64,000 bases of DNA from an uncultured Selenomonadales bacterium (GTDB lineage: Bacteria; Bacillota; Negativicutes; Selenomonadales; Selenomonadaceae): assembly GCA_946408355.1 (NCBI GenBank), contig CAMJRX010000002.1:1-64000 (forward strand). The letters run 5' to 3'. The notes beneath the pieces are model-generated. The model saw only the letters and a list, made by a program, of their open reading frames with translations, had not been told where the DNA came from and did not search any database. The position numbers and the translations under genes are program-made. Of this stretch, positions 9,536 through 62,907 are shown piece by piece (position 1 is the stretch's first letter; every line of letters starts with the position of its first letter).

Positions 9536-9577
9536 ATTTATCACTCCCTGCAAAAATTTTTCCTATGATAGCAAAAA

Positions 9578-9642
9578 GCAACGTGACGTTGCATCCAATG
9601 TTCGCGATTGACGTCACAGAAATTTTAACGTTATCGCCGCGT
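9578..9642 (+). repeat. Intergenic repeat, copy A
   Basis: This is a 65-bp member of a four-copy family (others at 14552, 59733 and 62840). It starts with a hairpin, GCAAC-GTGAC-GTTGC, then a core beginning TCGCGATTGACGTCAC, an AAATTTT run, and ends in CGCCGCGT. It is bounded by an imperfect 27-bp direct repeat (9551-9577 and 9643-9669, 23 of 27 identical, all four differences transitions). It lies in the secA 5' region, antisense to secA. Confidence 0.75.
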
Positions 9643-9664
9643 CAAAAATTTTTCTTATAGTAAC

Positions 9665-9706
9665 AAAAAAAATCCGCCACTGCAAATTTATCTGCGCGGC
9701 GTGAAA
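9665..9706 (-). terminator. Probable intrinsic terminator of the nucleotide-sugar dehydrogenase gene
   Basis: On the minus strand a stem with CGCC/GGCG and an inner GCA/TGC part is followed by an eight-base T run. It lies just after the dehydrogenase stop and contains one copy of the CCGCGCAG octamer. Confidence 0.55.
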
Positions 9707-9712
9707 TTTTTT

Positions 9713-10951
9713 TTAATCTCTTTTAAACAAGTCTCGCGTATAAACTTTATCCTTAACGTCATCAAGTGCGCTTTCGTAGCGATTGGCGATAATGCAACGG
9801 CTTAGGCGTTTGAACTCGGCAACATCATTGACGACGCGGCTACCAAAGAAAGTTGAGCCGTCGGGGAGCGAAGGTTCATAAACGATAACAGTAATGCTTT
9901 TAGCTTTGATTCGTTTCATGATACCTTGAATAGACGATTGGCGGAAATTATCGCTACCGGTTTTCATAGCAAGCCGCCACACGCCAACGATAATTTCATT
10001 TTCGCGTTCGATAGAAAAGTCTACGCCGTCAGCATATGTACCGGAAATTTCCAAGACACGCGAGGCAATAAAATCTTTGCGGGTGCGGTTGCTGTTGACG
10101 ATTGCCTCAATTAAATTTTCGGGCACGTCCTGATAGTTTGCTAAAAGTTGCTTAGTATCTTTAGGCAAACAATAGCCGCCGTAGCCGAACGAAGGATTAT
10201 TATATTGGTCGCCGATTCGCGGGTCGAGGCAAACGCCCTTGATAATATCTTGCGAGTTGAGGTTTTTAACTTCGGCGTAGGTGTCCAGCTCGTTAAAATA
10301 AGCAACGCGCAAGGCAAGATACGTATTGGCAAAAAGTTTAACCGCTTCCGCCTCAGTCGTGCCCATAATCAGCGTAGGAATATCTTTTTTCTCCGCGCCT
10401 TCCTGCAACAGCTTAGCAAATTCATTAGCGGCTTTAACTTGCGCGGCGTCGTCGAGATTAGCTCCAACGATAATTCGCGACGGATAAAGATTATCATATA
10501 GGGCTTTGGATTCGCGCAAAAATTCAGGGCTGAATAAAATTTTATCCGTAGAATATTTTTCGCGCATAGATTTAACAAAGCCAACGGGAATTGTACTTTT
10601 TATAACCATGTAAGCTTGCGAGCCGCTGTTTAAAACTTCCTCGATAACCGAGCGGACAAAAGTTGTATCAAAAAAATTTTTCTTAGGGTCGTAATTGGTT
10701 GGCACCGCGATTATAACGAAGTCAGCCGCCGCATAAGCCGCCTTAGAATTGGTTGTGGATTTAAGGTCAAGTTCGCGTTCGGCAAAAAATTTCTCAATGT
10801 ATTCGTCACGAATAGGCGATTTACGATTATTTACCATGTCGACTTTTTCTTTAGACACGTCGACGGCTAGCACGTGGTTTTTCTGCGCGAGCAATGTCGC
10901 CATAGAAAGTCCGACGTAACCTAAACCGGCGACTGCGATTGTTTTGTTCAA
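9713..10951 (-). CDS. ugd: UDP-glucose/nucleotide-sugar 6-dehydrogenase
   Basis: A 412-residue NAD-dependent nucleotide-sugar dehydrogenase that oxidises a UDP-hexose to the uronic acid, for envelope polysaccharide. The N-terminus is the NAD fold [13 protein letters not shown]. The substrate half contains [19 protein letters not shown]. The catalytic cysteine is in [15 protein letters not shown]. The TTG at 10951 is preferred because AAGGAGG precedes it and translation starts directly at the Rossmann strand; the longer frame from 11005 runs through the promoter. The exact sugar (glucose or N-acetylmannosamine) cannot be fixed, but the sequence most resembles the UDP-glucose enzymes. Confidence 0.9.
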
Positions 10952-10976
10952 ATATATCAGCCTCCTTATTTGGGCG

Positions 10977-11005
10977 ATAATAGCAAAAAGCTTTTCGCCT
11001 GTCAA
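10977..11005 (-). promoter_or_regulatory. Strong sigma-70-type promoter for ugd
   Basis: On the minus strand: TTGACA (11000-11005), 17-base spacer, TATTAT (10977-10982). It faces away from the promoter of the GH13 gene seven bases to the right, forming a divergent pair. Confidence 0.75.
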
Positions 11006-11011
11006 AAATGA

Positions 11012-11040
11012 TTGTCAAGAAAAATCAAATGCAGTAAAAT
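11012..11040 (+). promoter_or_regulatory. Sigma-70-type promoter for the GH13 gene
   Basis: TTGTCA (11012-11017), 17-base spacer, TAAAAT (11035-11040), 23 bases before the GH13 ATG and back to back with the ugd promoter. Confidence 0.7.
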
Positions 11041-11063
11041 CCTCGTGTAAGGGAGGAATTCTT

Positions 11064-12791
11064 ATGAATCGAAGGACGTTTATCAAAGGGGCGATTGCAT
11101 TGACGGCGGCGGCTTATATTTCTCCAAGCTTTGGAAATAAAATCGTATTCGGCGCGGAAAATTTTAAATGGTGGCAGAAAAAACCGGTCTATCAAATTTA
11201 CCCGAAAAGTTTTCTTGACACGACAGGTAAAGGCACGGGCGATTTGCGCGGCATTACTCAAAAGCTTGACTACATAAAAAGTTTAGGCGTGAGCGCGATT
11301 TGGCTGACGCCGATTTACGTTTCCTCGATGGTTGATAACGGCTATGACATTGCTGACTACACGGCGATTGACCCGCGCTTTGGAACTATGGAAGACTTCG
11401 ACGAGCTAATTGCTGAGGCTAAGGCATGCGATATTAAAATCGTTATGGATTTGGTGTTCAATCACACGTCGGATAAACACTCGTGGTTTTTGGAATCAAA
11501 ATCAAGCCGCAATAATCCCAAAGCCGATTGGTATATTTGGCGTGATGAAAAAACTAATTGGCGCGGAATATTTGGCGGTAGTGCGTGGCAATGGTGCGAA
11601 GAGCGGCAACAATATTATCTGCACACATTCGCGACGCAACAGCCCGATTTGAATTGGGAAAATCCCGACGTTCGACGGGCACTTTACGCCGCCGCAAATT
11701 TCTGGTTGGATAAAGGCGTTGGCGGTTTTCGTATCGACGCGATTGTTTACATTAAAAAGCCGAAAACTTTTGTTGACGGTACACCAGACGCGCCCGACGG
11801 AACTTGCGCCGTTCACAACATGATAGCGAACACCGACGGCATTTTAGATTTTCTGCACGAACTCAAGCGCGAAGTTTTTGACGGACACGATATTTTTACG
11901 GTCGGCGAGGCGAATAGCGTTAAGCCCAAAGAATTAAAATATTGGGTTGGCAAGGACGGCGTTTTTAATATGCTGTTCGAATTCAGTCACGTCAATGTTA
12001 TGTTCAACAACGGCGATGAGGTTTGGCACCGCTCCAAGCCGATTAAGCTTAGCGAATTAAAAAAGGCATTGAGCAACAGTCAAGCGGCGACAAAAGACAG
12101 TTGGTATCCGATTTACTTTGAGAATCACGACAAGCCGCGCTCGGTTAATAATTTCTTCCCGCACGGTTCCGATAAAATTTTGGCGGCTAAGGCTTTGGCG
12201 ATAATTTTGTTTACTCTGCGCGGGACGCCGTTTATTTATCAAGGCGAGGAACTCGGTTTTACGAACACGCAATTTGATTCGATTGACGACTACGACGATA
12301 TTTCCTCGCACGGCGCGTATGATTTAGCGCGTTCGGACGGCTTAAGCGATAAAGAGGCAATGCGCTTTGTGCAGAAATTTAGTCGGGACAATGCACGGAC
12401 GCCTATGCAGTGGAATTCGTCGGCTAATGCGGGCTTTACGACGGGCAAGGCGTGGTTGCCGGTTCACAAAGATTTTGTCACCTGCAATGTGGAAGTCGAG
12501 GAGCGCGACGCTAATTCTGTGCTGAATTTTTATCGCAAGTTGAGCGCGTTGAGAAATTCGAGCGACGTTTTGATTGGCGGCGATTATGCCGAGCTTTATC
12601 CGAAAAATGAAGAGCTGTATATTTTTACGCGGAATTTAGGCGATAAAAAATTTATGACGGTGGTAAATTTCACAACACACAAAGTAAATCTGCCCGATAA
12701 AATTTTCGACGGAGCTAAAAAGGTTTTGGGCAACTACGCTGACGAGAAAAATTATTTGCGGGCAACGGAGGCGGCAATTTATGAGTTTTAA
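11064..12791 (+). CDS. Exported GH13 alpha-glucosidase with twin-arginine signal
   Basis: A 575-residue family GH13 (subfamily 31-like) enzyme: oligo-1,6-glucosidase / alpha-glucosidase / trehalose-6-phosphate hydrolase group. The (beta/alpha)8 core begins with KPVYQIYPKSF. Catalytic residues are the Asp in GGFRIDAIVYI, the Glu in FTVGEANS and the third Asp in ENHDKPR. The N-terminus, MNRRTFIKGAIALTAAAYIS, has the twin-arginine pattern (RRxFIK) before a mild hydrophobic stretch, so export by Tat is inferred; tatA and tatC are in this window. Cytoplasmic relatives lack a signal. The start is the ATG with GGGAGGA. Its 3' end overlaps the HAD gene by 11 bases. Confidence 0.9.
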   Translation: MNRRTFIKGAIALTAAAYISPSFGNKIVFGAENFKWWQKKPVYQIYPKSFLDTTGKGTGDLRGITQKLDYIKSLGVSAIWLTPIYVSSMVDNGYDIADYTAIDPRFGTMEDFDELIAEAKACDIKIVMDLVFNHTSDKHSWFLESKSSRNNPKADWYIWRDEKTNWRGIFGGSAWQWCEERQQYYLHTFATQQPDLNWENPDVRRALYAAANFWLDKGVGGFRIDAIVYIKKPKTFVDGTPDAPDGTCAVHNMIANTDGILDFLHELKREVFDGHDIFTVGEANSVKPKELKYWVGKDGVFNMLFEFSHVNVMFNNGDEVWHRSKPIKLSELKKALSNSQAATKDSWYPIYFENHDKPRSVNNFFPHGSDKILAAKALAIILFTLRGTPFIYQGEELGFTNTQFDSIDDYDDISSHGAYDLARSDGLSDKEAMRFVQKFSRDNARTPMQWNSSANAGFTTGKAWLPVHKDFVTCNVEVEERDANSVLNFYRKLSALRNSSDVLIGGDYAELYPKNEELYIFTRNLGDKKFMTVVNFTTHKVNLPDKIFDGAKKVLGNYADEKNYLRATEAAIYEF

Positions 12792-13560
12792 AGTAGCGGC
12801 AAGCGATTTTGACGGAACTTTATTTAGGGGGCAAAAATTTTCTGCGGAAGATTTAGCGGCGATAAAAAATTGGCGGGCGGCGGGAAATAAATTCGGACTT
12901 GTAACGGGGCGTTGCTATCCAATGCTCATACCGCATTTGCAAGACGCAAATTTAGAAATCGACTTCGCCATTTGTGACAACGGAGCGATAATCTTCGATG
13001 GCGCGGGACAAATCATATTTGAAACGGAAATTCCTAAAAAAATTTTGCTTAAACTATTTAACGAGCCGTTCTTGAAAAAAAGTTTGCATTTTCTATTCGA
13101 GGCGGCGGACGAAGTTTATTGCGTTAACATAAAAGAAAATTCGTGGGTAGTTAAGGAGCGACCGCGTTGGGAATTCTTTTTGACGACAACAGATGCCGCG
13201 CAGGTGCCGACATTGCAAAAAAAAATAAATCAGTTCGCCTTAGGTTTTGAAAGTTCCGCAGAAGCTCAAGAGGCGGCAGATTTTTTGAACAAAAATTTTG
13301 GCGACGTGATTTTTGCGCAAAAAAATACTCGCAGTCTGGACGTAGTGACGGCGGGCATAAATAAGGCAAGCGGCGTGGAAAAACTTTTGCAGGTTCGTAA
13401 TTGGGACGGGAAAATTTTCGTTATCGGCGACGAGTCGAATGATTTGCTGATGATAAAACATTTTGGCGGCTACACGGTCGCGACGGCTAAAGATTTCGTT
13501 AAGCGTGAGGCTACGGAAATTTTCGATTCGGTCGGCGAAATGCTGAATAACTTCGTATGA
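12781..13560 (+). CDS. Cof-type HAD-IIB phosphatase
   Basis: A 259-residue HAD hydrolase: motif I ASDFDGTLFRG, motif II VTGR at residue 40, motif IV FVIGDESNDLLMI near 220. The cap between motifs II and III is the IIB type. It begins inside the end of the GH13 gene and overlaps the permease gene by four bases, so it is part of a tightly packed operon. Substrate not determined; a sugar phosphate is plausible given the neighbour. Confidence 0.88.
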   Translation: MSFKVAASDFDGTLFRGQKFSAEDLAAIKNWRAAGNKFGLVTGRCYPMLIPHLQDANLEIDFAICDNGAIIFDGAGQIIFETEIPKKILLKLFNEPFLKKSLHFLFEAADEVYCVNIKENSWVVKERPRWEFFLTTTDAAQVPTLQKKINQFALGFESSAEAQEAADFLNKNFGDVIFAQKNTRSLDVVTAGINKASGVEKLLQVRNWDGKIFVIGDESNDLLMIKHFGGYTVATAKDFVKREATEIFDSVGEMLNNFV

Positions 13561-14510
13561 TAAAAATTTTTTTGATAGGCTTAGCGGCGGTCGCGGGATT
13601 TTTCTTGAGCTTAATGAACGGTTCAGTCGAAATAACTTCCGCGCAGATAATCGGACAAGTGCCACTCGACGAAACTAAGCGGCAAATTTTAGAAAATATT
13701 CGTCTACCTCGTACAATCGTCGCAATGTTAGTCGGCGTGAATTTGTCGCTGTCGGGAGCAATCTTGCAAGCCGTAATGAAAAATCCGTTAGCTGACCCGC
13801 ACATAATCGGAATATCTTCGGGCGCGGGATTGTTCGGAATTTTCGTTATGATGATTTTCGGCGACGCGGGCGCATTGGTGACACCGGCGGCATTTATCGG
13901 AGCAATGTTGGCGGCGTCGTTGATATATCTTTTGGCGTGGAAAGACGGCATTCGCCCGATTCGCGTAATTTTGGCGGGCGTGGCAGTGAGTGCGTTTTTG
14001 GGCGCGGGCATTTCGGCGTTGCTAATTTTTTACAGTGATAAAGTTCACGGCGCGTTATTGTGGATGGTGGGCGGCTTATCGGCGCGAAGTTGGCAACACG
14101 TCGAAATTTTATTGCCGTATTCAATCGCAGGGACGCTGGCAACTTTTTTATCTGCGCGGCACATGAACGTTTTGCAACTGGGCGACGAGGTAGCAACGGG
14201 GCTAGGCTTGCGCGTCAATCTTGTACGGACGATTTTAACGGCAATCGCGGCATTATTAGCGGCGTCGGCGGTTTGTGTCGTTGGATTGTTAGGTTTCGTC
14301 GGATTGATTGTTCCGCATACGGCAAGATTAATTCTCGGCTCGGATTATAAAATTTTATTGCCTGGAGCGGCGATGTTGGGGGCGGCAGTCGTCACGATAA
14401 GCGACACATTTGCCCGAACGATTTTTTCCCCGGCTGAATTGCCCGTCGGAATTTTAATGGCGATGCTCGGCGCACCGTTCTTTTTGTATTTGTTGAGGTG
14501 CGAATTATGA
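13557..14510 (+). CDS. FecCD/BtuC-type ABC transporter permease
   Basis: A 317-residue polytopic permease for iron-siderophore, heme or cobalamin uptake. The family landmarks are RLPRTIVAMLVG near residue 50, the GAILQAVMKNPLADP loop near residue 65, GGLSARSW in the middle and the ATPase-contact region ATGLGLRVNLVR. The C-terminus PVGILMAMLGAPFFLYLLR is typical. ATGA overlap with the HAD gene indicates coupling. No substrate-binding protein gene is visible nearby, so the ligand is unknown. Its stop overlaps an ATG that would encode MNLTA, the same opening as the ATPase gene 137 bases downstream (see repeat copy C). Confidence 0.92.
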   Translation: MIKIFLIGLAAVAGFFLSLMNGSVEITSAQIIGQVPLDETKRQILENIRLPRTIVAMLVGVNLSLSGAILQAVMKNPLADPHIIGISSGAGLFGIFVMMIFGDAGALVTPAAFIGAMLAASLIYLLAWKDGIRPIRVILAGVAVSAFLGAGISALLIFYSDKVHGALLWMVGGLSARSWQHVEILLPYSIAGTLATFLSARHMNVLQLGDEVATGLGLRVNLVRTILTAIAALLAASAVCVVGLLGFVGLIVPHTARLILGSDYKILLPGAAMLGAAVVTISDTFARTIFSPAELPVGILMAMLGAPFFLYLLRCEL

Positions 14511-14551
14511 ATTTGACGGCTGAAAAAAACTTTTAAAAAGTTGACAAACAG

Positions 14552-14619
14552 CCCGCTTTAAAAGCGGGAGAACAGCGGTCGTGATTTACGTTATAAAAAA
14601 TTTTAGTTCGTCGCCGCGT
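14552..14619 (+). repeat. Intergenic repeat, copy C
   Basis: A 68-bp member of the four-copy family. It opens with a 17-bp palindrome, CCCGCTTTAAAAGCGGG, followed by GAACAGCGGTCGTGATTTAC, an AAAATTTT run and GTCGCCGCGT. It is very close to copy D (minus strand, 59733). It sits between the permease and ATPase genes, in the direction of transcription. The sequences around 14495-14526 and 14632-14663 look like duplicates of each other. Confidence 0.75.
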
Positions 14620-14643
14620 TTAGATTTTTAAGAGGTTTAGACT

Positions 14644-15432
14644 TTGAATTTAACAGCAAAAAATATTTCCGTAAAACTCGGAGGCAAAGAAATTCTGCAC
14701 GACGTGAATTATAGCTTTAAATCGGGAAAACGAACGGCGATTATTGGTCCGAATGGCGCAGGCAAATCTACGCTATTAAAAGTTCTTTGTTTGCTTAACG
14801 AAAAATTTTCTGGAAATGTTTCGCTCGACGGGAAAAATATTCGTAACATTGGCAGAAAAAATTTGGCGCGAGTAATGGCAATTCTTCCGCAAGAACGCGA
14901 CGCCCCACAAGATACGACCGTTCGGCAACTGGTTTCGTTCGGACGCTTTCCGCACAGAAAATTTTTCAGCGGCGAATCGGCAGAAGATTCAGCGGCAATA
15001 AAAAACGCCCTTGAACTTACAAAGCTCACGGACTTTGAAAATAGGCAAGTAATATCTTTGTCGGGTGGTGAACGTCAACGCGCTTGGTTGGCTATGACTT
15101 TAGCTCAACGCCCGAAAATTTTATTGCTTGACGAGCCAACAACTTACCTTGACATTTCTCATCAACTTGAAGTCATGGACATTATCGCCGACGTTAACAA
15201 AAAATTTTCTACGACGATTATAATGGTTTTACACGATATAAATCACGCTCGCCTTTATGGCGACGATGTTTTGATTATCAAGAACAAAAAAATTTTTGCG
15301 GCGGGCGATCCGAAAACTATTTTGTCCGCGCAGATTTTAAGCGAAGTTTTTTCCGTAAACGCAGACACTTTTACTAATGTGGCGGGCGATGAAATTATTT
15401 TTCCCATAAAAATAATCAAAAAACAATGTTAA
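14644..15432 (+). CDS. FepC/BtuD-type ABC transporter ATPase
   Basis: A 262-residue ABC ATPase powering the adjacent FecCD permease. Walker A is GPNGAGKSTLL near residue 36, Q-loop ILPQER, signature LSGGERQRAWLAM near 140, Walker B KILLLDEPTTYLD, and the H-loop VLHDINHA. The start is TTG at 14644 with AGAGG upstream. The gene is separated from the permease by a 68-bp repeat. The sequence just upstream of the repeat encodes the same first five residues and then stops, suggesting the original start was there. Confidence 0.92.
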   Translation: MNLTAKNISVKLGGKEILHDVNYSFKSGKRTAIIGPNGAGKSTLLKVLCLLNEKFSGNVSLDGKNIRNIGRKNLARVMAILPQERDAPQDTTVRQLVSFGRFPHRKFFSGESAEDSAAIKNALELTKLTDFENRQVISLSGGERQRAWLAMTLAQRPKILLLDEPTTYLDISHQLEVMDIIADVNKKFSTTIIMVLHDINHARLYGDDVLIIKNKKIFAAGDPKTILSAQILSEVFSVNADTFTNVAGDEIIFPIKIIKKQC

Positions 15433-15650
15433 AAAACTTTCAATTTACCTTTTTCCCTGATTCCCTGTCTATAGTTTCAACGCTAGCCGATTTGTACGAC
15501 GAACTGACAATGCCGGCAGATTTGCGAGCCGCGCACAAAAAAAACGACCGCGCTGTTGCTCAAGCTTACGGCTTTGAAAATATTTTGGACGATGAGTCGG
15601 CAATCGTGGCTTCACTGTTTAAAATGTACGAGCGTTTGACAAAAAATTAA
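15426..15650 (+). CDS. Orphan C-terminal fragment of an MmeI-like type IIG restriction-modification enzyme
   Basis: A 74-residue reading frame overlapping the ATPase stop. Residues 20-70 (TLADLYDELTMPADLRAAH, then KKNDRAVAQAYGF and SLFKMYERL) closely match, from memory, the conserved C-terminal end of MmeI-family (type IIL) methyltransferase-nucleases, where LADLYDPLTMP and DLRKAH are hallmark motifs. The rest of such an enzyme (about 900 residues of nuclease, methylase and target-recognition domain) is absent upstream; the preceding DNA is the ABC ATPase. It may be a remnant of a decayed system or a small stand-alone protein. It is not clear that it is translated. Confidence 0.6.
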   Translation: MLKNFQFTFFPDSLSIVSTLADLYDELTMPADLRAAHKKNDRAVAQAYGFENILDDESAIVASLFKMYERLTKN

Positions 15651-16127
15651 GCTTGTAGTAAATTTTGTAATGAGAACTATATAAAATACATGATAGCGCA
15701 TGTCGTTTTAACACCAAACGAATATTCAATCATTAGCGAACACTTTCTCTCCTAGAAGTTCTGCTGTGGTATTCGAGGAGTTGGTAACCGTAGACTAAAA
15801 CGTTGACAAAAATATAAATAAGTCCTAAACTGTACTTGCCAGTTAAAACCAAGCTGGACAAAAAAATTCTAATACCGGTGGCTCTCCGGGAATTTACGAC
15901 TGTGGAGTAAAATGTTGGTAGCTTTGGCGAAAACGGACACGGGTAAGCAGTAAGACAGAATCGCGAGATCTGTCCAATTCATCTTAACGTGGACACAAAT
16001 GACGAAAATCCACAAATGACCATTTTTTAAGGAGCAGTTGTAGCATCGGTAAAAATATATCACACGCCGAAATTTTTAGCAATTAGCGGTTCAGCCGATG
16101 AGATTTCGGTTTAATTTTTATGTAAGC
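15651..16127. other. Non-coding stretch upstream of rpoB with several inverted repeats
   Basis: No convincing gene is seen in these roughly 480 bases. Inverted repeats include GACAGA/TCTGTC around a TCGCGA core near 15953-15976, CCAG/CTGG near 15840, GTGGA/TCCAC near 15990-16013, and two mutually exclusive stems: CATCGG (16044) with CCGATG (16095), and CCGAAAT (16067) with ATTTCGG (16103), the latter followed by a T-rich run like a terminator. It could hold an RNA or an attenuated leader. It is not a recognised rnpB, ssrA or 6S RNA. rplJ and rplL, the usual neighbours of rpoB, are not here. Confidence 0.4.
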
Positions 16128-16156
16128 TTGACAGAAAATTTAATCACGTATAAAAT
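16128..16156 (+). promoter_or_regulatory. Strong sigma-70-type promoter of the rpoB-rpoC operon
   Basis: TTGACA (16128-16133), a 17-base spacer and TAAAAT (16151-16156). The rpoB start codon is about 100 bases downstream, giving a leader of roughly 95 nucleotides. An independent rpoBC promoter is consistent with rplJL not lying directly upstream. Confidence 0.75.
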
Positions 16157-16257
16157 TGGTAGTCACTTGAAATAAAATAGGTAAATTATGCGCGTCGTGT
16201 CCATTGACATTTTCCAGGTTACGCCGCGCATATTACTTTCAGCGAGGAGGACAGCCG

Positions 16258-48827: not shown

Positions 48828-48856
48828 ATTATATCACAAGTTTTTTTGCGTGTCGA
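48828..48856 (-). promoter_or_regulatory. Promoter for tatA-tatC
   Basis: Minus strand: TCGACA (48851-48856), 17-base spacer, perfect TATAAT (48828-48833) with TGA before it. Its -35 box overlaps that of the divergent MBL-gene promoter. Confidence 0.7.
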
Positions 48857-48874
48857 AAGTTTTTTTGCTATCAT
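48846..48874 (+). promoter_or_regulatory. Promoter for the MBL / GrpE-like / Hsp70-like operon
   Basis: TTGCGT (48846-48851), 17-base spacer, TATCAT (48869-48874) with an extended TGC. It is divergent from and overlaps the tatA promoter. Confidence 0.6.
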
Positions 48875-48893
48875 TACGGCGGAGGTGTTTTTA

Positions 48894-50000: not shown

Positions 50001-50018
50001 CAAGGAGGGAATTCTCTC

Positions 50019-51089: not shown

Positions 51090-51101
51090 GGAGGAATTTT
51101 T

Positions 51102-54023: not shown

Positions 54024-54048
54024 AAACAACTAAAGCGAGGAATTAGGA

Positions 54049-54813: not shown

Positions 54814-54824
54814 AGTTTAACCAT

Positions 54825-56018
54825 TCAAGTTATAAATATTGGCGACGTAGAAAAATCACTTTGCGGCGGGCGCGGCGTCTCGAATAAGATTGAGCGCAAA
54901 TCCGTTGCCAACACGTCGAATAACAAAATTTTTTGATACGGTTCTAAAAATCTCTTGCGTTCGTAAATATCACGGCGATTTAAATGTTTCGTGAGTTTCG
55001 TGATTATCAGCGCGGAGATTTTTTTTAATAGAATTCGTCCGCGCTCGTTGAATGCTAAAACTCTTGCACAAGTCGCCGCGTCAAGTTCTGCAACCTCTTC
55101 CGCCGTTAAGTTCAGCAAAAAATATAAAAGCAGTCGTCGAATTCGGCTTGCGGTGTAACGTCGTCCGACCAAAATTTTTATAAGCTCGGAAAAATTTTTA
55201 GCTATCGTCGCGTTGAGTAATCTGAATTCCAATCCCTCTGTCATGCCGTAAATTTTTTTCCGCTCGTCGACGCGGGCAGTTAAAAGTTTCGTCATGAGCG
55301 GGCGGAATAAAAAATTTTCGTCAACTAATTTTTCTGCGCGAAGAGCGTTTAAAGTTTCGTTTGAAACCTGCGCGGCGATTTTTTCCCACGACGGAGGATT
55401 TTCGTAAAGAGCCGCCCGAATTGCCGTCGCACTCGAAATTTTTTCTTGCAAAGTTAAATCGTCATAAGCCGCCCCGACCCGTTCAATTAAAAGCGGCGAA
55501 AATTTTTCGGGCAGTGCACGCAGATATTCAATCGCGAGGATTGTATTTGGTTGTCGCAAAAGTTTTTCGTCTAATTTAGTGACTTTGGATAAAATTTTCG
55601 TGACTGCCGCCGCGTAGGAAATTCCTTGCGACATTAGTCGCCGCAGTTCTGTAGCGAAAAATTTTTCATCGAACGTTGCCGCCGCCAATTTTAATTTTTC
55701 TAAGTCAGTGACCTCCGCGCCGAATGCCAGCGTATCGACGACGCCTAAACTTTTTAGCAAGTTGATTCCGCCGCGTGCAAAATCCTGCGCACTTCTTACA
55801 GCTTTAACGAACGGCAATTCCAAAACTAAATCTACGCCGCCCAAAACGGCAAGTCTTGCCCGCGTCCACTTGTCTAAGATTGCGGGCGAGCCGCGTTGCG
55901 TGAAACTTCCGCTCATCACTGCGACGATTTCCCAGCCGTAAACTTTTTTTATCTCGGAAATTTGATATGCGTGCCCCGCGTGAAACGGATTATATTCTGC
56001 AATTATTCCAACTGCCAA
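54825..56018 (-). CDS. tmcAL: tRNA(Met) cytidine acetate ligase, TmcAL
   Basis: A 397-residue enzyme of the YlbM/TmcAL family, which uses acetate and ATP to make N4-acetylcytidine at the wobble position of elongator tRNA-Met in Bacillota. The N-terminal nucleotidyltransferase motif is GIIAEYNPFHAGHAYQI, followed by VAVMSGSFTQRGSPA and VDLVLELPF. The TTG at 56018 is preferred: GGAGG eight bases upstream and the conserved strand follows at once. The helical C-terminus is normal. Confidence 0.9.
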   Translation of the reverse strand: MAVGIIAEYNPFHAGHAYQISEIKKVYGWEIVAVMSGSFTQRGSPAILDKWTRARLAVLGGVDLVLELPFVKAVRSAQDFARGGINLLKSLGVVDTLAFGAEVTDLEKLKLAAATFDEKFFATELRRLMSQGISYAAAVTKILSKVTKLDEKLLRQPNTILAIEYLRALPEKFSPLLIERVGAAYDDLTLQEKISSATAIRAALYENPPSWEKIAAQVSNETLNALRAEKLVDENFLFRPLMTKLLTARVDERKKIYGMTEGLEFRLLNATIAKNFSELIKILVGRRYTASRIRRLLLYFLLNLTAEEVAELDAATCARVLAFNERGRILLKKISALIITKLTKHLNRRDIYERKRFLEPYQKILLFDVLATDLRSILFETPRPPQSDFSTSPIFIT

Positions 56019-56125
56019 TTTTCTCGCCTCCAATTTCAGTTGATTTTCTTGCAATAAATTTTCAAATGGTGTATACTTCGCGGCAGTTAAGAGTTAATGA
56101 AAAAAATCTGTACGAGGTGAATAAA

Positions 56126-56884
56126 TTGGAATTTTCTCAAGCCAAAAAATTATTAGCGGCGGCGTTGCTCGGTGCATTTGCAATTTCATATCCCGTAACA
56201 GTTGACGCAAGAGTTCACGACCCAAAAGTTGAAACTAAATCTGTCCAACGGAAATTGCCGACTTTGCGCGAACGTGTCGCCGAAACAATGAGCAAATTTA
56301 AACCTGCTGAAGACGAAGAAATTTTTGACGCATTCGATAAACAACGAAATTTTTCAGTACCTACGACAGTCTCAACCTCTGACACGTCGATAATCGGGAC
56401 GCCTATCGCCACTCAACAACAGTGCGTTAAATATCTCCTACGCAACAATCCTAATCCGAACTTAAACGTTTCAGCGGAAGAAATTGTTGCCTATTATTAC
56501 GAGGAAGGCGCACGCGAGGGAATTCGTCCCGACGTTGCATTTGCGCAAGCTCTCAAGGAAACTGGATTTTTCCGTTACGGCGGCGATGTTATTCCCGAAC
56601 AAAATAATTATTGCGGACTCGGTACGACAGGCGGCGGCGTCAAGGGCGAATTTTTTGCTACGCCACAACTCGGAGTTCGCGCCCATATTCAGCACTTATT
56701 AGCTTATTCTTCGACGCGACGCCCCTCAATGCCTGTTGTTGACCCGCGCTATGGAATTGTTCGTCAAGCTTACGGTTCGCGGACTTTAGGCAAATGGCAA
56801 GATTTAAACGGTCGCTGGGCTGTTCCCGGCAGATATTACGGGCAAGAAATTTTGTCTATGTTCCGCGATATTTTAGTTCAGTAA
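56126..56884 (+). CDS. Exported GH73-type glucosaminidase
   Basis: A 252-residue exported peptidoglycan hydrolase. A signal peptide (AKKLLAAALLGAFAISYP) precedes a low-complexity linker and a C-terminal domain with VAYYYEEGAREGIRPDVAFA, then a QALKETGFFRYGGDV segment with the catalytic Glu, NNYCGLG and GVRAHIQHLLAYSS, the order of glycoside hydrolase family 73 (endo-beta-N-acetylglucosaminidase). Start: TTG at 56126 with GAGGTG; GTG at 56117 is the alternative. It remodels the cell wall. The permease gene follows 28 bases downstream. Confidence 0.85.
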   Translation: MEFSQAKKLLAAALLGAFAISYPVTVDARVHDPKVETKSVQRKLPTLRERVAETMSKFKPAEDEEIFDAFDKQRNFSVPTTVSTSDTSIIGTPIATQQQCVKYLLRNNPNPNLNVSAEEIVAYYYEEGAREGIRPDVAFAQALKETGFFRYGGDVIPEQNNYCGLGTTGGGVKGEFFATPQLGVRAHIQHLLAYSSTRRPSMPVVDPRYGIVRQAYGSRTLGKWQDLNGRWAVPGRYYGQEILSMFRDILVQ

Positions 56885-56912
56885 AAAATTTTTTAAAAGG
56901 CTCTGATTCCCT

Positions 56913-58250
56913 ATGTCTGAAAATAAAATGCAACGTGGTTTAAAGAATCGCCATTTGCAGATGATTGCGTTGGGCACGGCTGTTGGCACGGGCTTATTTT
57001 ACGGCTCGACAGCAACAATCGCCCTTGCAGGTCCCGCCGTCTCGTTGAGCTATTTAATCGGCGGGATAATTATTTTTCTTATCGTGCGCATGTTGGGCGA
57101 GATGTCCGTTGAAGAGCCGGTTAGCGGTTCATTCAGTTACTATGCCTCTAAATATTGGGGCGAATTCCCCGGCTTTTTGGCGGGCTGGAATTATTGGTTC
57201 CTTTATATTCTCGTTAGCATGGCGGAACTTTCTGCCGTCTCTATTTATCTGGGCTATTGGTTCCCCGACTTGCCCAAATGGGTTGGCGTGCTTGCCTGTT
57301 TGATAATTATTACGGTTATTAATCTCGTTACAGTCAGCGCGTATGGCGAAATTGAATTTTGGATGGCGTTTATTAAAATTGCCGCGATTATCGGAATGAT
57401 TTTGCTCGGCTCGTATTATATCGCAACCGACCCCGATCCTTTCCCCGAAAATTTTTCTTACTTGTGGGATCACGGCGGATTTTTCCCGAACGGTATCGAA
57501 GGTATGCTGATGTCGTTGGCTCCGGTGCTGTTTAGTTTTGGCGGCATTGAACTTTTGGGAATTACGGCGGGCGAGGCTGAAAATCCCGATAAAACAATTC
57601 CCCGCGCCATTAATCAAGTTATTTACCGCATTTTGATTTTTTACGTCGGCACAATGATTGTTCTTATGACTTTGTGGCCGTGGAATGAAGTTGGCAAAGA
57701 GGCAAGTCCTTTCGTGCAGATTTTCAGCAACGCGGGCTTCACGTCGACGGCGAACATTTTAAATTTCGTCGTGTTGACTGCGGCTGTCAGCGTTTATAAT
57801 TCGGCGATTTACTCGAATTCGCGAATGCTTTACGGCTTAGCGAAGAGTGGCAACGCTCCGAAATTTTTTGAGAAACTTTCAAGTCGCGGCGTCCCAGTCA
57901 ACGGAATTTTAGTTTCGTCAGGGATAACGCTTTTGGCGGCAGTGCTGAATTATATTTTGCCCGAAGAGGCTTTTATGTACATGATGGCAATCGTGACGGG
58001 CGCGGTCGTCATAAGTTGGGCAATGATTATCTTGACGCATTTAAAATTCCGTCAACACTGCGCGGCGGTGGGCATCGTTCCGAAATTTAAATCGCTGTTC
58101 TACCCGTTCGCCGATTATCTTTGCTTAGCGTTTCTAACAATGATTTTGGTAATTATGGCGTTAATGGACGACATGCGACCGGCAGTTATTGTCATGCCTA
58201 TTTGGATTGTGGCAATTCGCCTGTTCTATCAATCGAAGAAAAAATCATGA
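56913..58250 (+). CDS. Amino-acid permease of the AAT (AroP/LysP) branch
   Basis: A 445-residue, twelve-helix amino-acid:proton symporter. Signatures: LKNRHLQMIALGTAVGTGLFYG at the start (typical 'RHIxMIALGGxIGTGLF' consensus), GEMSVEEPVSGSFSYYASKY near 63, GIELLGITAGEAENPDKTIP near 213. Substrate in the family ranges over aromatic, basic, GABA or proline. It is a separate gene from the APC permease at 28847. ATG with only a weak AAAGG site upstream. The ferredoxin-like gene overlaps its stop by four bases. Confidence 0.9.
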   Translation: MSENKMQRGLKNRHLQMIALGTAVGTGLFYGSTATIALAGPAVSLSYLIGGIIIFLIVRMLGEMSVEEPVSGSFSYYASKYWGEFPGFLAGWNYWFLYILVSMAELSAVSIYLGYWFPDLPKWVGVLACLIIITVINLVTVSAYGEIEFWMAFIKIAAIIGMILLGSYYIATDPDPFPENFSYLWDHGGFFPNGIEGMLMSLAPVLFSFGGIELLGITAGEAENPDKTIPRAINQVIYRILIFYVGTMIVLMTLWPWNEVGKEASPFVQIFSNAGFTSTANILNFVVLTAAVSVYNSAIYSNSRMLYGLAKSGNAPKFFEKLSSRGVPVNGILVSSGITLLAAVLNYILPEEAFMYMMAIVTGAVVISWAMIILTHLKFRQHCAAVGIVPKFKSLFYPFADYLCLAFLTMILVIMALMDDMRPAVIVMPIWIVAIRLFYQSKKKS

Positions 58251-58453
58251 TAATTTACAACGAAAATATTTGCGTGAAATGTTTGGCTTGTGTTAGTGAA
58301 TCGGAACTCGGCGGCGTGATTTATGAGCGCGGTCGAATTTTTTTTTATGAAATTTGCGCGGAAGATTGGGAAAATATTATTTCAATTTGCCCAGTCGCCG
58401 CCATAAAAAAAGTCGCCGAAGCGACAAATAAAAATTTACAGTTTAGTGATTAA
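58247..58453 (+). CDS. Small 4Fe-4S ferredoxin-like protein
   Basis: A 68-residue protein coupled to the permease (ATGA overlap). NENICVKCLACVSE gives a CxxCxxC, and SICPVAAIKK gives the C-P of a single-cluster ferredoxin. The intervening stretch, GVIYERGRIFFYEICAED, replaces the second set of cysteines of a bacterial two-cluster ferredoxin. An electron-transfer role is inferred from the cysteines only. Its last 18 bases overlap the convergent CNNM gene. Confidence 0.65.
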   Translation: MIIYNENICVKCLACVSESELGGVIYERGRIFFYEICAEDWENIISICPVAAIKKVAEATNKNLQFSD

Positions 58454-59701
58454 AATTTTCCCAATGCGAACTCCGTCCATTTCCTTAACTTTAAAGCGGA
58501 AACCGTTCCATTCGCAGACCTCGCCGACTTTTGGAATATAGCCGAATTGCGAAGTTACAAAGCCGCCCATAGTTTGAAAATGGTCGTGCTCCTCGTCAGG
58601 CAAAGTTTCGATATTAAAACGCTCCTTAAAGTCGTCAATATCGCAAAGCCCGTCGACAGTCCACGAATTATCCTTGTTGCGCTTGAACTGCTTATCAGTA
58701 ATTTCGTCGCCGCTAATGTCAACAATCTCGCCTAAAATGTCGTCAAGCGTGATAAAGCCGATAATGCCGCCGTATTCGTCGTTGACCATAGCCTCTGTTA
58801 TGCCGCTTGAACGAAACTTTTCAACAATGCGGAACGCCTCCATAGTTCGCGGCACGTAGCTTGCCTTTTTAATCAGCGCAGTCAAGTCAATCTCGCGCCC
58901 GTCCTTTAAAATGGCGTCAAGTAAATCTTTAGCGTAAATCAGCCCGCGACAATCGTCTAAACTGCCATAACCGACCGGAAAAATCGTGTAGGGACTTTCT
59001 TGCACGATTTTTAAATTTTTTTCCAAGTCGTTGTCTAAATCAAGCCAAATAATTTTAACTCGTGGCGTCATCAAAGAATAAGCTGTCTCGTCGCCAACGT
59101 CGAAAATTCTATCAACCATTTCTTGTTCGGATTTCTCAATCGTGCCGTCTTCCGTTCCCTGCTCAATCAAATCTTTAACTTCATCTTCGGTTACGGCGTC
59201 GGGTTTGGTTGAGTTCATTCCGAATATAAATCCGATACCGCCCGCTACAGCCGACAACATAGCTACAAACGGATTCATAACTGCCACGATTAATCGGAAC
59301 GTTTTGTAGTGGTTGAGCAAAAACTTTTCTGGTTTACGTTTAGCCGCTTGCTTAGGTAAAAATTCTCCAAACAACAAGAAAATAAACGTCGTTACACAAA
59401 GCGCGATTACCGCCGCAGGGATTATCGATAAATTTATCAGCCCCGCGATTGTCGGACTTGTAAGTATTGCGCACACGCCCGCCAATATTCCCGTGCAAGT
59501 GATTCCGACTTGTGCGACGGTCAACGGGGCAGGCGATTCTATCATTGCCAAAACTGCCTGTGCATTTGCGTCGCCGTCTTCAGATAATTTTTCCAGCCGC
59601 CCGCGGTGACTTTCTATCAGCGCAGTTTCCGTTAGCGAAAAGTAACCGCTCACTGCCGCCAATAAAACTATCAACGCAGGCGGGATTAGTCCTGTCTCCA
59701 A
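58436..59701 (-). CDS. CNNM/HlyC-CorC family membrane protein
   Basis: A 421-residue protein: four hydrophobic segments in the first 175 residues (CNNM/DUF21 domain, beginning ALIVLLAAVSGYFSLTETAL, with TKPDAVTEDEVKDLI after it), two CBS domains (LMTPRVKIIWLDLDNDLEKN near 210; TEAMVNDEYGGIIGFITLDD near 315) and a CorC/HlyC C-terminal beta domain (DEEHDHFQTMGGFVTSQFGY). Such proteins are thought to transport magnesium or cobalt ions. TTG start with GAGGTG upstream. It is separated from the proline-rich protein gene by repeat copy D. Confidence 0.9.
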   Translation of the reverse strand: METGLIPPALIVLLAAVSGYFSLTETALIESHRGRLEKLSEDGDANAQAVLAMIESPAPLTVAQVGITCTGILAGVCAILTSPTIAGLINLSIIPAAVIALCVTTFIFLLFGEFLPKQAAKRKPEKFLLNHYKTFRLIVAVMNPFVAMLSAVAGGIGFIFGMNSTKPDAVTEDEVKDLIEQGTEDGTIEKSEQEMVDRIFDVGDETAYSLMTPRVKIIWLDLDNDLEKNLKIVQESPYTIFPVGYGSLDDCRGLIYAKDLLDAILKDGREIDLTALIKKASYVPRTMEAFRIVEKFRSSGITEAMVNDEYGGIIGFITLDDILGEIVDISGDEITDKQFKRNKDNSWTVDGLCDIDDFKERFNIETLPDEEHDHFQTMGGFVTSQFGYIPKVGEVCEWNGFRFKVKEMDGVRIGKILITKL

Positions 59702-59732
59702 ACTCTACACCTCATTAACACAAAAACTTAAA

Positions 59733-59802
59733 ACGCGGTGATGAACAAAAAATTTTTTTACGGTAAAGCGCGACCGCTGTTCTGTAGCTTTTAAAGCGGT
59801 CT
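59733..59802 (-). repeat. Intergenic repeat, copy D
   Basis: On the minus strand it reads ACCGCTTTAAAAGC at the 5' end, then GAACAGCGGTCGCGCTTTACC, a run of A and T (AAAATTTT) and CATCACCGCGT. It matches copy C over nearly its whole length. It lies between two co-directional genes (proline-rich protein and CNNM) in the direction of transcription. Its flanking duplication is unclear. Confidence 0.72.
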
Positions 59803-59807
59803 CCTTA

Positions 59808-60980
59808 TCAATTCAAAGCAATTCTTGCATACTCGTCAAGCATGTCGGCAAATGTCATGTGCCCGCGCTCGTTCGCCTTAGACTTGCCGATAATTTTAAT
59901 CGTCGCGTCGTAAATCGCGGACTCAACGCTACCGGGAACTAAATTTTCCCAGTTCTTATAATCGTAGGCTCGCTCGTTAATTGCATTTTGCGGACGCCCG
60001 AAAACTTCCAGCTCGCAGAGGAATTGGATTTGTTGAGTTTTTGGACGCAAATAATAATGCTCCAAAACGTAACTTTGCTGACGGAGAACTTTTATATCTT
60101 CAGGCGAATATTGATAGCCCTTTTCTCGTGCCAACGCGATTTGCGCTCTGAAATTATCTGCGCCGTAATAAGCCATGTCGTCATCAAGTTGTTTTGGCTC
60201 GCGCTCAATCATACGAACCCAAACATCCGCCATATACTCATTAGCCATATACGGCATTCTCTTCCATTGCACAGAAGTTTTATCCAAATAATAAATGTAC
60301 GTGTCGTCGACTGCCAACTTGATGAAACGCGGCTTTAGAATTTTTAAATCCGATTGCACCGGCGCACTACTGCTTGACGGGAAATATCGCCGCGCAGGTT
60401 TTTCCGCAAGTGTTGATTCGGGCGATGGTTGAACGATTACAGCCGGCTCGTTAATAGGTTCTTGTACATCGGAAATATTTGTCGGGTGCTCAAACGGTCG
60501 ATTAGTTTCTATTGGCGGCAAAGACTCAATAGTCGGCTCCTCAATCGGTGTGGTTGGCTTAGGTTCAACTTTTGGTTGTTGCGTAGGCGGATTTTGCGCA
60601 GGAATTTTGCTAACGTCGTTAAAAATCAATACGTCGCCAAAATTTTCGTCGTCGGCTTCGGGTTGTTCAATCGGTTTAGTTGGCGGCTCGTCTTTAGGCT
60701 TTACAACTTCGGGTTCGGCGGTCGGCTTTTCTACAGGCGGCTTTTCTACAGGCGGTTTTTCTACAGGCGGTTTTTCTGCAGGTAATTTTTCTGCAGGAGG
60801 TTTTGGCGCGGGCGTATCGACTTTTTTCGGTGCAGGCTTTTTAACTTTTTTTGACGCGGTTGACTCTGCCTCGTCCTCGAATTCGCCGCCGAAAATTACA
60901 ATATCATCGTCCGCTGAAACTTGCGGCGCATTCATCAGCAACGCGAGAACCGCCGCGCTTGTTATCAATTTTTTTCTCAC
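59808..60980 (-). CDS. Exported proline-rich protein with repeat array, unknown
   Basis: A 390-residue protein with a Sec signal peptide (KKLITSAAVLALLMNAPQVSA). From about residue 45 to 200 it is a proline-, lysine- and glutamate-rich linker, with a run of PPVEK/PPAEK units that might extend through the peptidoglycan. The final 180 residues (DLKILKPRFIKLAVDDTYIYYLDKT onward) form a compact domain that I do not recognise, with several tyrosine-rich strands. Upstream is rsmG, two bases before the GTG start. Envelope localisation is inferred. Confidence 0.75.
   Translation of the reverse strand: MRKKLITSAAVLALLMNAPQVSADDDIVIFGGEFEDEAESTASKKVKKPAPKKVDTPAPKPPAEKLPAEKPPVEKPPVEKPPVEKPTAEPEVVKPKDEPPTKPIEQPEADDENFGDVLIFNDVSKIPAQNPPTQQPKVEPKPTTPIEEPTIESLPPIETNRPFEHPTNISDVQEPINEPAVIVQPSPESTLAEKPARRYFPSSSSAPVQSDLKILKPRFIKLAVDDTYIYYLDKTSVQWKRMPYMANEYMADVWVRMIEREPKQLDDDMAYYGADNFRAQIALAREKGYQYSPEDIKVLRQQSYVLEHYYLRPKTQQIQFLCELEVFGRPQNAINERAYDYKNWENLVPGSVESAIYDATIKIIGKSKANERGHMTFADMLDEYARIALN
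60726..60790 (-). repeat. 15-bp tandem repeats encoding PPVEK
   Basis: On the minus strand, about four to five units of a 15-bp repeat (plus-strand TCTACAGGCGGTTTT) encode the five-residue unit PPVEK with slight variants (PPAEK, LPAEK). They are near-identical, so the array should vary in length between strains. Confidence 0.7.
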
Positions 60981-60981
60981 G

Positions 60982-61689
60982 TTAATTCCCCATTCCCAAA
61001 TTTTTAGTTCTAATTACATTTTCACGACGTGGAAATTTATTTGGTGTAGATTTTTTCTTGTCAATGTAAATTACGGCTCGTGAATCGTCAAGCGTCGGCA
61101 ATTTTATTTCACGAATGATAATTTCTCCGCTGCCCAAAATTTTGATTGCCGCTCGTGCCTCGTCCAGTTCCTCACGGAAATTTTTGCCTTTTAACGCGAC
61201 GAATTTTCCGCCGACTTTTACGAAGGGTAAACAATATTCCGCCAAAATATTCAATCGTGCGACGGCTCGCGAAGTCACAACGTCGAATTGTTCACGAAAA
61301 ATTTTTTGCCGTGCAAGCTCTTCTGCTCGTCCGTGAAAAATTTCTACGCCGTTAAGCTCCAATTCTGCGACGACTCGTTTTAAAAATTCCACGCGCTTAT
61401 TTAGCGAATCAATCAGACAGAATTTTATTTGCGGGCGGAAAATTTTCAACGGTATTGCAGGAAAACCCGCGCCCGTTCCAATGTCGGCAATACGTTCGAC
61501 GCCGTGAAAAAATTTTTCGTCCCACGCGCTCAACGAATCAATTATGTGTTTGATTGCGAACTCGTGCGGCTCGGTTATCGTCGTCAAGTTCATTACGCGA
61601 TTTTGTTCAATAATCAGCCGATAAAACTTTTCGCAAAGGTCAATCTGCGCGTCGTTCAATCCGAATCGTTTCAACTCGCCGCGAAACAT
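60982..61689 (-). CDS. rsmG: 16S rRNA guanosine-527 N7-methyltransferase RsmG
   Basis: A 235-residue SAM-dependent methyltransferase. Core motif I is IADIGTGAGFPAIPLKI near residue 67, followed by NKRVEFLKRVVAEL and FDVVTSRAVARL. RsmG methylates G527 of 16S rRNA; loss gives low-level streptomycin resistance. The ATG at 61689 has GGAG nine bases upstream; earlier in-frame ATGs lie before the ribosome binding site. It shares its -35 box with the divergent hisC promoter. Confidence 0.94.
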   Translation of the reverse strand: MFRGELKRFGLNDAQIDLCEKFYRLIIEQNRVMNLTTITEPHEFAIKHIIDSLSAWDEKFFHGVERIADIGTGAGFPAIPLKIFRPQIKFCLIDSLNKRVEFLKRVVAELELNGVEIFHGRAEELARQKIFREQFDVVTSRAVARLNILAEYCLPFVKVGGKFVALKGKNFREELDEARAAIKILGSGEIIIREIKLPTLDDSRAVIYIDKKKSTPNKFPRRENVIRTKNLGMGN

Positions 61690-61708
61690 TTTAATCATCT
61701 CCATAAAT

Positions 61709-61737
61709 ATTTTAGCCGCCTTGCAGAAACTTTGCAA
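61709..61737 (-). promoter_or_regulatory. Promoter for rsmG
   Basis: Minus strand: TTGCAA (61732-61737), 17-base spacer, TAAAAT (61709-61714). TTGCAA is its own reverse complement and also serves as -35 for hisC. Confidence 0.6.
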
Positions 61738-61761
61738 GCTAAAGTATATTTCTGTTATAAT
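61732..61761 (+). promoter_or_regulatory. Promoter for hisC
   Basis: TTGCAA (61732-61737), 18-base spacer, perfect TATAAT (61756-61761), with TGT before it (extended -10). Confidence 0.7.
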
Positions 61762-61789
61762 CTAAAAAAATTCTAAAGAGGTTTTGCAA

Positions 61790-62851
61790 ATGCTCAATTA
61801 CCGAAACGAACTGGAAAAAATGCCGTCATATGACGGAGTGGAAAAAAGTTATCGGATAAAAGTCAACGCGAACGAATCGACGATGAATTTGCCGCCGTTG
61901 GTTGAAGAGCGCGTGATTAATCGGCTGGCGTTGCTGGCGTTCAATCGCTACCCGAATGCGGAATATTATTCGCTGGTCGAACAAATTGCTAAAAATTTTT
62001 CCGTCGACATGTCGCAAGTTTTATTGGGCGGCGGCTCCAGCGAAATTATCGAAAAAGTTTTTCACGCATTTGGCGGCGCGTGGCACAAAGTCGTTTATCC
62101 GCAACCGAGCTTTTCCATGTACAAAATCTACGCAAAAGCGGCTGACGCGGAAGGAATTCCTTTTGACTTAGACGAGAAATTTAATCTTAACGTCGACGAG
62201 TTCATTAAAAAAATCCGTGAAGTCAATGCAAGCCTCGCTGTCGTCTGCAACCCGAATAATCCGACTGGTAATGTCTTGACGCCCGCGCAGGTCGAAAAAA
62301 TTGCCGCATCGATTGATTGCGCATTTTTGCTTGACGAGGCTTATGTTGAGTTCTACGGAAAATCGGCGGTTAATCTCGTTAAAAGATATTCAAACTTAAT
62401 TGTCGCACGAACTTTTTCTAAAGCTTACGGTATGGCGGGTGCTCGCGTCGGCTACATGATTGCCCAGCCTGAAGTTACACGCATGATTAACAAAACTTTT
62501 ATGCCTTATCACATGAACGTTTTGACATTGGCGGCGGCGGATATTGTTTATCAAATGCGCGACGAATTTGTTCCGCGTCTGCAAATGATAATCGCCGAAC
62601 GCAAACGCATGAGTGAACGTCTTAAAAAAATTCGCGGCGTCGAGATTTTTCCGTCGGAGGCAAATTTTATTTTGATTCGGCTTGCCCGCGCAGAAGAACT
62701 TAAAAATTATTTGGAGTCGCTAGACATTGGCATAAGATATTTTTCGCCGAGCGCGTTTGGACTAAAAAATTGCTTGCGAATATCAATCGGCACGCGAATT
62801 GAGAACGATGAAGTTTTCGGCGCAATAAAAAATTTCTTGGAGGCAAAGTGA
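61790..62851 (+). CDS. hisC: Histidinol-phosphate aminotransferase
   Basis: A 353-residue PLP-dependent class II aminotransferase of histidine synthesis. KVNANESTMNLPP (start), CNPNNPTGNVL (substrate contact), FLLDEAYVEF and the PLP-lysine in ARTFSKAYGMAGARVGY near 210 are the standard motifs. The ATG at 61790 has AGAGG eight bases upstream. Its stop codon lies inside the hairpin of repeat copy B. hisB follows. Confidence 0.95.
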   Translation: MLNYRNELEKMPSYDGVEKSYRIKVNANESTMNLPPLVEERVINRLALLAFNRYPNAEYYSLVEQIAKNFSVDMSQVLLGGGSSEIIEKVFHAFGGAWHKVVYPQPSFSMYKIYAKAADAEGIPFDLDEKFNLNVDEFIKKIREVNASLAVVCNPNNPTGNVLTPAQVEKIAASIDCAFLLDEAYVEFYGKSAVNLVKRYSNLIVARTFSKAYGMAGARVGYMIAQPEVTRMINKTFMPYHMNVLTLAAADIVYQMRDEFVPRLQMIIAERKRMSERLKKIRGVEIFPSEANFILIRLARAEELKNYLESLDIGIRYFSPSAFGLKNCLRISIGTRIENDEVFGAIKNFLEAK

Positions 62852-62907
62852 CGTTGCCTCCAGCGGGCGCGATTGACATTACGAAAATTTTCAGCAAATC
62901 ACCGCGT
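62840..62907 (+). repeat. Intergenic repeat, copy B
   Basis: A 68-bp member. The hairpin GAGGCAA-AGTGACG-TTGCCTC contains the hisC stop TGA in its loop; then CAGCGGGCGCGATTGACATT, AAAATTTT and ATCACCGCGT. It matches copy A in the ATTGAC part. It lies between hisC and hisB, in the direction of transcription. Confidence 0.72.

Follow-up and report, generated by a model that had tools for sequence, protein, structure and literature searches.

The window considered here (64,000 nucleotides, G000:C2:1-64000) belongs to the draft genome of a rumen bacterium (2.45 Mb, 85 contigs, 84% complete) and carries four copies, A to D, of a small hairpin-bearing repeat element. The element family is probably non-autonomous mobile DNA (probability about 0.62), moved by a trans-acting protein with target duplications of variable length, and mainly through excision and reinsertion. 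Insertion itself is shown, as the element is missing from the corresponding sites of close relatives. It often duplicates 8 to ~118 bp of the target, since many element-free sites hold the target stretch singly, and the left junction coincides with the first hairpin base. In the proposed mechanism, the trans-acting protein would recognise the 5' hairpin together with the conserved 3' end, the two target strands would be opened far apart, the element would be joined to them, and the gaps would be filled in. That movement proceeds mainly by excision and reinsertion is less certain; it is suggested by copies that have no close siblings despite fairly young duplications and by footprints kept at some element-free sites (L117/G014 and L116/G014).

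All four window copies are present as originally predicted. The covariance model R1, built from 28 aligned copies with A to D included (23 from the source genome and 5 from relatives), recovers these four and only these in the window (E 2e-19 to 4e-15; next match E 0.05). At E up to 1, R1 has 60 matches in the source genome; 48 of these places lie below 2e-4, and two of the 48, L288 and L289, look degenerate. A strict sequence pattern derived from A to D occurs at 7 places in this genome versus 0 for the reversed pattern. The looser pattern AAATTTTN{4,10}TCRCCGCG, which is independent of the covariance model, occurs at 28 places versus 0 reversed, and among the matches listed, 17/27 of its places have the hairpin layout by eye. 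The layout given in the original prediction stands, while the extent of the set is amended: there are 48 places in the genome, copy C has an extra upstream hairpin, and copy B is longer, reaching 62935. For the RNA-processing element that the original prediction named as its other possibility, the comparison covered Rfam, which has no gathering match in the window and on 14 element loci gives 3 matches at E up to 1, none over the element; a cobalamin riboswitch (Rfam E 1e-19) is located upstream of the element at locus L119 (88-267). Copy A has no match in plasmids, and the searches made of the open-licence PMC library showed no description of the family.

The element is about 65 bp long, or about 97 bp with a second 3' end (range 65-100 bases). 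It consists, in order, of a 5' hairpin, a linker ending in CAGC or similar, GTCGCG, about 13 variable bases, AAATTTT, and TCRCCGCG, which is a nearly fixed end across the 28 aligned copies. Three main hairpin types occur, CAACTTT-TAA-AAAGTTG (T1), GCCGCTT-TAA-AAGCGGC (T2) and GCAACG-TGA-CGTTGC (T3), and their variants carry changes on both stem arms. When stems were measured copy by copy (66 rows, two loci counted twice), a stem of at least 6 was found in 60/66, with a mean of 6.6 versus 2.8 in flank controls and with 16 distinct 5' arms; the six rows with a perfect stem below 6 are L099, L100, L107, L111, L112 and L119. Hairpin pairing is maintained through paired changes while the stem sequence varies. 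RNAalifold reports 4 invariant pairs and no covariation on the 28-copy alignment, because the hairpin types are misaligned in it. At the other end, 64 copies were classified by their 3' tail: 36 have a YTTAARC-like short tail (the loose expression used for it also fits 16% of control sites), 9 have a second hairpin such as GAAATGCATGCGCATTTCTAGC, and 19 have neither. The hairpin 3' end is found with T1, T2 and T3 starts. A coding function was considered and rejected. T3 is readable as NVTLHP, yet single-base differences in core length mean that no reading frame is kept; of 89 copies, 27 have no forward frame open through the copy, 47 have one and 15 have two or three.

The flanks of 64 copies were searched for repeats by aligning left and right flank locally and comparing the best match with cross-locus pairs. 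A score of at least 26 is reached by 28/64 copies versus 0.73 expected, and a score of at least 34 by 22 versus 0.22; since a few loci are doubled as orthologues (for example L070/L039 and L048/L074), the 28 repeat-bearing copies are not fully independent. The 27-bp direct repeat claimed for copy A is real: 23/27 positions agree, the four differences are all transitions, and its score of 34 is reached by 0/63 cross-locus controls. The repeat sequence is specific to each locus, and its left copy ends at the hairpin or a few bases from it. Repeat length ranges from 13 to 108 bp in 27 copies and reaches 118 bp in G005, in a copy that belongs to an array. Some repeats, such as those of L069 and L110, contain a ribosome-binding site and start codon, so that the downstream gene is kept. 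Elements and repeats also form arrays, with three units at L097 and L269 and two at L093 and L248; a two-unit array at one locus is common to G014 and G017.

Evidence for insertion also comes from sites in relatives; the named relatives bearing the element are genomes from metagenomes that carry the label Selenomonadaceae or Selenomonadales, and two come from goat. Seventeen copies of the source genome were scored, namely copy A and 16 others. For 16, flank pieces were located in five relatives (74 matches), and the stretches around 40/74 of these matches were aligned. For 16/17 copies, the two flanks occur in one or more relatives with no element between them, and L126 has no usable site. The original prediction had named empty orthologous sites and further copies as the test of a mobile element; orthologous loci without the element do exist, and many more copies are present in the genome and its relatives. 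At the copy A site in G017, G027 and G068, the query halves overlap by 25-26 bp, which corresponds to one repeat and no element, and G014 carries the element with both repeats. The gap is filled in G010 by a type T2 element and, in G031 and G033, by a diverged copy in the opposite orientation that was recognised by eye and by score (no R1 match at E 0.01).

At 10/17 copies, the empty site is matched better by one repeat than by two: L103, L119, L109, L110, L125, L102, L105, L120, A and, in G017, L100. Gapless single-repeat fits are found at L103/G014 (48 bp), L119/G017 (27 bp), L100/G017 (18 bp), L109/G017 (16 bp), L105 in both G014 and G017 (14 bp) and L120/G017 (8 bp); the repeat is only 7 bp at L102 and 8 bp at L120. 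The duplication previously noted at copy A is thus joined by others in the window, since B and C, and less clearly D, are also duplicated when inspected by eye beside the empty site. It is conceivable that the elements are ancestral and were precisely lost in relatives by recombination between repeats, with no recent movement. Losses are indeed seen, in partial double repeats at L117/G014 and L100/G014 and in a GCAAC remnant at L116/G014. This explanation is nevertheless very improbable: L103 would need independent precise loss in G014, G017, G027 and G086, copy number is concentrated in one clade, and the repeats still need an insertion origin. At one position after the same gene, with a matching downstream tail, the source genome has a T3 element (L116) and G064 a T2 element (L236). 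This difference is an element exchange or a repeated hit on one site.

The divergence between the two repeats dates an insertion. In 16 copies of the source genome, the two repeats differ by 49/526 bases (9.3%) and so resemble each other 91%, versus a median of 79% for the elements. Nearest-neighbour identity has a median of 0.79 among the 48 elements of this genome and lies at 0.71-0.92 for the 16 repeat-bearing copies, while a faithful copy of a surviving element should be about 0.9 alike. The low sibling identity reflects either moving rather than copying (or high turnover), mutagenic copying, or donors outside the assembly. The lower likeness among elements than between their own repeats points to movement without copying or to diversification.

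Template switching during replication or repair could also produce the observed arrangement. A strand would jump at the hairpin to an element elsewhere, copy it and return 8-118 bases upstream; the duplication would then be a product of replication, and no transposase would be needed. Entry is precise at the hairpin, 3' tails are loose (0-38 bases) and the return may fall at any length, all of which agree with this view, as does the fact that no tested transposase family tracks the element. However, every young insertion should then have a close sibling, and most nearest neighbours are distant. Template switching also predicts tails taken from the donor flank, and in the partial sample compared, the closest pairs share none except orthologues. 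Core-target complementarity is lacking as well, and template switching is accordingly judged unlikely.

The outcome of insertion differs with the 3' end. A long repeat abuts the hairpin in 39/75 short- or other-tailed copies versus 3/31 hairpin-tailed ones (Fisher p 3e-5; 106 distinct copies, with one locus counted once and inner array units dropped); in the first 89 copies of this test, the counts are 34/65 versus 1/24. The hairpin-tailed copies with a long repeat are L269 (an array), L282 and L285, and copy B is possibly a fourth by eye, being also the one hairpin-tailed copy whose empty sites were examined. The kind of 3' end and the occurrence of a long duplication are therefore associated, though not strictly. 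A more specific proposal can be put forward tentatively, namely that the ~65-bp element moves by a process not described before. In it, a hairpin of changeable sequence would mark the left junction, a stretch of 8-118 target bases would be opened, and the outcome would be steered by modular 3' ends, the short end giving a long duplication and the hairpin end doing so seldom. Non-copying movement, or diversification driven by the process, enters this proposal because elements differ by 21% versus 9% for their own target duplications.

Three enzyme families were searched in the 66 genomes of the genus. Y1 transposase passes the cut-off in 6/66 genomes, none of them the source genome; reverse transcriptase (PF00078) is present in 21/66, with three matches in the source genome; and IS1634 transposase passes in 0/66, with a weak match in 5. 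Neither Y1 transposase nor reverse transcriptase is related to element copy number, which is not higher with reverse transcriptase (median 2 in 19 genomes versus 8 in 42, p 0.32). All three families are missing from G005, G030 and G064, which carry perfect or nearly perfect repeats. Such absences are not proof, because the search covered three families only and the drafts are incomplete.

These searches bear on three further explanations. It is improbable that the element is a miniature insertion-sequence derivative dependent on an IS1634-like DDE transposase, a kind known for long duplications of variable length. The direct repeats of IS1549 and IS1634 measure 8 to 514 bp, and the paper describing them notes that a mechanistic model had yet to be proposed (PMC2266710); such lengths would suit the duplications seen here. 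Nevertheless, IS1634, the only DDE family searched, has no transposase over the cut-off in any of the 66 genomes, and the complementarity between element ends is only slightly above that of flank DNA (mean score 5.8 versus 4.9; score of at least 9 in 4/89 versus 0/88). This complementarity is no better within a copy than between copies, and long terminal inverted repeats are absent from the 89 copies. Alternatively, a bacterial retroelement resembling short interspersed nuclear elements (SINEs) would be transcribed into an RNA starting with the hairpin and reverse transcribed into a staggered break. The variable duplication length, fixed 5' end and variable 3' tail are in keeping with this scheme, but reverse transcriptase is absent from the incomplete drafts G005, G024, G030, G061, G064 and G010, some of which have perfect repeats, and copy number is not higher where it is present; a SINE-like origin is thus decidedly improbable. 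A palindrome of the repetitive extragenic palindromic (REP) type moved by a Y1 (HUH) transposase would likewise be small, hairpin-bearing, largely intergenic and present in many copies. GTAG precedes the hairpin in only 2/89 copies, however, Y1 transposase is found in few genomes and not in this one, and the target duplications are long, which leaves this explanation with a negligible probability.

Several observations count against movement by a trans-acting protein with target duplication, or against its non-copying form. No significant repeat was found at 36/64 copies, among them B, C and D in the automatic test; this method gave no sensible repeat for D, L116 and L107 and a 12-bp piece for C. 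Two repeats fit better than one at L117/G014 and L100/G014, and for copy B one repeat does as well as two in G014 and slightly less well in G017. The two-repeat cases and the GCAAC remnant look like losses after insertion, and other absences of the element may be losses too, because recombination between repeats would restore a single repeat. Copying occurs, at least for the hairpin-tailed kind: G064 holds three identical elements (L249, L250 and L251), all hairpin-tailed, and the pair L278 and L280 in the source genome has an identity of 0.97. In addition, 16% of this genome is missing, so that donors may be unseen. Finally, no candidate enzyme emerged from the three families searched (Y1, reverse transcriptase and IS1634).

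The gene contexts given earlier for the four window copies are correct. Copy A lies antisense upstream of secA. Its left target duplication of 27 bp (9551-9577, plus strand) is single in G017, G027 and G068; the element, consisting of a type T3 hairpin, the core and the end TCGCCGCG plus one base (9578-9642, plus strand), is present in G014 and absent from G017, G027 and G068; and the right duplication (9643-9669, plus strand) is supported by the flank-repeat score. Copy C lies in sense on the plus strand between a FecCD permease gene and an ABC ATPase gene. Its left target duplication, with an ATG start codon, covers 14507-14527 and was identified by eye against the empty sites of G014 and G017, the automatic test giving the 12-bp piece only. 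It is followed by a T1 hairpin (14528-14551), a T2 element (14552-14618) and a tail to 14643, the whole of 14528-14643 being defined by sequence and R1, and by the right duplication (14644-14663), which contains the TTG start of the ABC ATPase gene and was likewise seen by eye against empty sites.

Copy D is on the minus strand and precedes a CNNM/CorC gene in sense. Its T2 element, with the core to 59734, and a short tail occupy 59721-59800 (sequence and R1). The left duplication (59801-59811) is short and diverged (7/11), weak by eye against G017 and missed by the automatic test; the right one lies at 59708-59718, by eye against the empty site. Copy B is located between an aminotransferase gene and an IGPD gene, in sense on the plus strand. 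The left duplication (62825-62843), with GGAGG at its end, was found by eye against G014 and G017, where the automatic test gives a tie or a worse fit. The element of hairpin type T3 follows at 62844-62906 (sequence and R1), its stem lengthened by the target GGAGG, and then a second 3' end with its own hairpin and GCTAGC as last bases (62907-62935, from sequence). The right duplication (62936-62950, by eye against the empty site) contains the ribosome-binding site of the IGPD gene. At 62839-62866, the target GGAGG pairs by eye with CCTCC, where other T3 copies have ATCC. Judging from sequence, the extended stem could mask the adjoining copy of the ribosome-binding site.

Across the genus, at least 53/66 genomes carry an R1 match at E 0.01 or better. 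Match counts per genome are lower bounds, as 77 candidates were scored in each and three genomes reach 77. Copy number tracks kinship, which was measured as identity of one conserved stretch in 61 genomes, five without a value being left out. The median is at least 22 in the 32 genomes of 80% identity or more and at least 1 in the 29 below, with one exception among the latter that has at least 65 matches. Elements lie near gene starts and show no strand preference: a sense gene start within 160 nt is found for 12/30 copies of the source genome and 9/29 other copies (controls 38/229), and an antisense one for 8/30 and 11/29 (controls 34/229). Of 57 copies, 30 have G and 21 have A immediately before the hairpin (G enriched, p 6e-6), and C or G is enriched one base further upstream (p 3e-5); this bias is in part a result of how the start is defined, as bases able to lengthen the stem are disfavoured. 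The core shows no likeness or complementarity to the target in 89 copies, the values equalling expectation; the complementarity suggested by L088 was rejected on this ground. Target homology, in which the right repeat would run on into the element start (5/27), was also rejected: L093 and L097 are tandem arrays, and the remaining run-ons at L119, L071 and, partially, L069 are taken as chance.

Several copies (L064, L041, L065, L186 and L187) start at most a few bases from the 5' terminus of tRNA genes for Arg, Gly or Phe and point away from them. At the same tRNA-Arg gene, the source genome has two elements in a row (L114 and L068, G000:C22:25992-26149) and G014 has one (L041, G014:C255), a difference between close relatives that came about through either expansion or loss. 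The 21-base start of T3, GCAACGTGACGTTGCATCCAG, occurs exactly in five IMG/VR contigs that have nothing else in common around it (L173 at 4182, L174 at 10287, L175 at 8020 and 10448, L176 at 2405, L177 at 624), and with one mismatch in 25 in the Microviridae record L178 (601-625). Loop variants of the T3 start are found in the same five IMG/VR contigs only, and T1 and T2 starts in none; the 20-base T3 start is in 0/397 other genomes of the phylum sample.

In general, the length of a target duplication is small and constant, since it reflects enzyme geometry. The present element is tiny, has no long inverted repeats and gives duplications of 8 to ~118 bp, which is a misfit to the enzyme families tested. 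The duplicated stretch often includes a ribosome-binding site or start codon, so that a gene can be hit yet stay intact, and arrays of element and repeat can then grow. Tens of copies per genome, together with empty sites between close species, offer a route to the enzyme and its reaction. Eukaryotic SINEs, with a fixed 5' end, a loose 3' tail and variable target duplications, share the end layout of the family, but several carrier genomes here are without reverse transcriptase.

Among bacterial systems, REP/TnpA-REP sequences are also small palindromic extragenic repeats in many copies. REPs come after a tetranucleotide of the GTAG type and are associated with a Y1 transposase (PMC8266576), neither of which applies here. 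Correia/NEMIS, ERIC and RUP are short non-autonomous mobile bacterial repeats as well, described in PMC2229807 as having terminal inverted repeats with TA at the ends. IS1549 and IS1634 resemble the family in their long variable target repeats, but they are complete insertion sequences, which have terminal inverted repeats and carry a transposase; in this genus the transposase is not found above the cut-off. Nearest in kind is YPAL/RU-2 of Yersinia and Erwinia, compared by description only: it is small and non-autonomous, has internal inverted repeats and no terminal ones, and makes variable target duplications of 3-26 bp (PMC2229807). Variable duplication without terminal inverted repeats is also found here, a likeness of kind only. 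YPAL measures 168 bp and belongs to enterobacteria, whereas the present element measures 65-97 bp, has its hairpin at the extreme 5' end and makes duplications to 108-118 bp. Within the literature compared, this family is the small bacterial mobile repeat with the longest duplications among elements of similar size.

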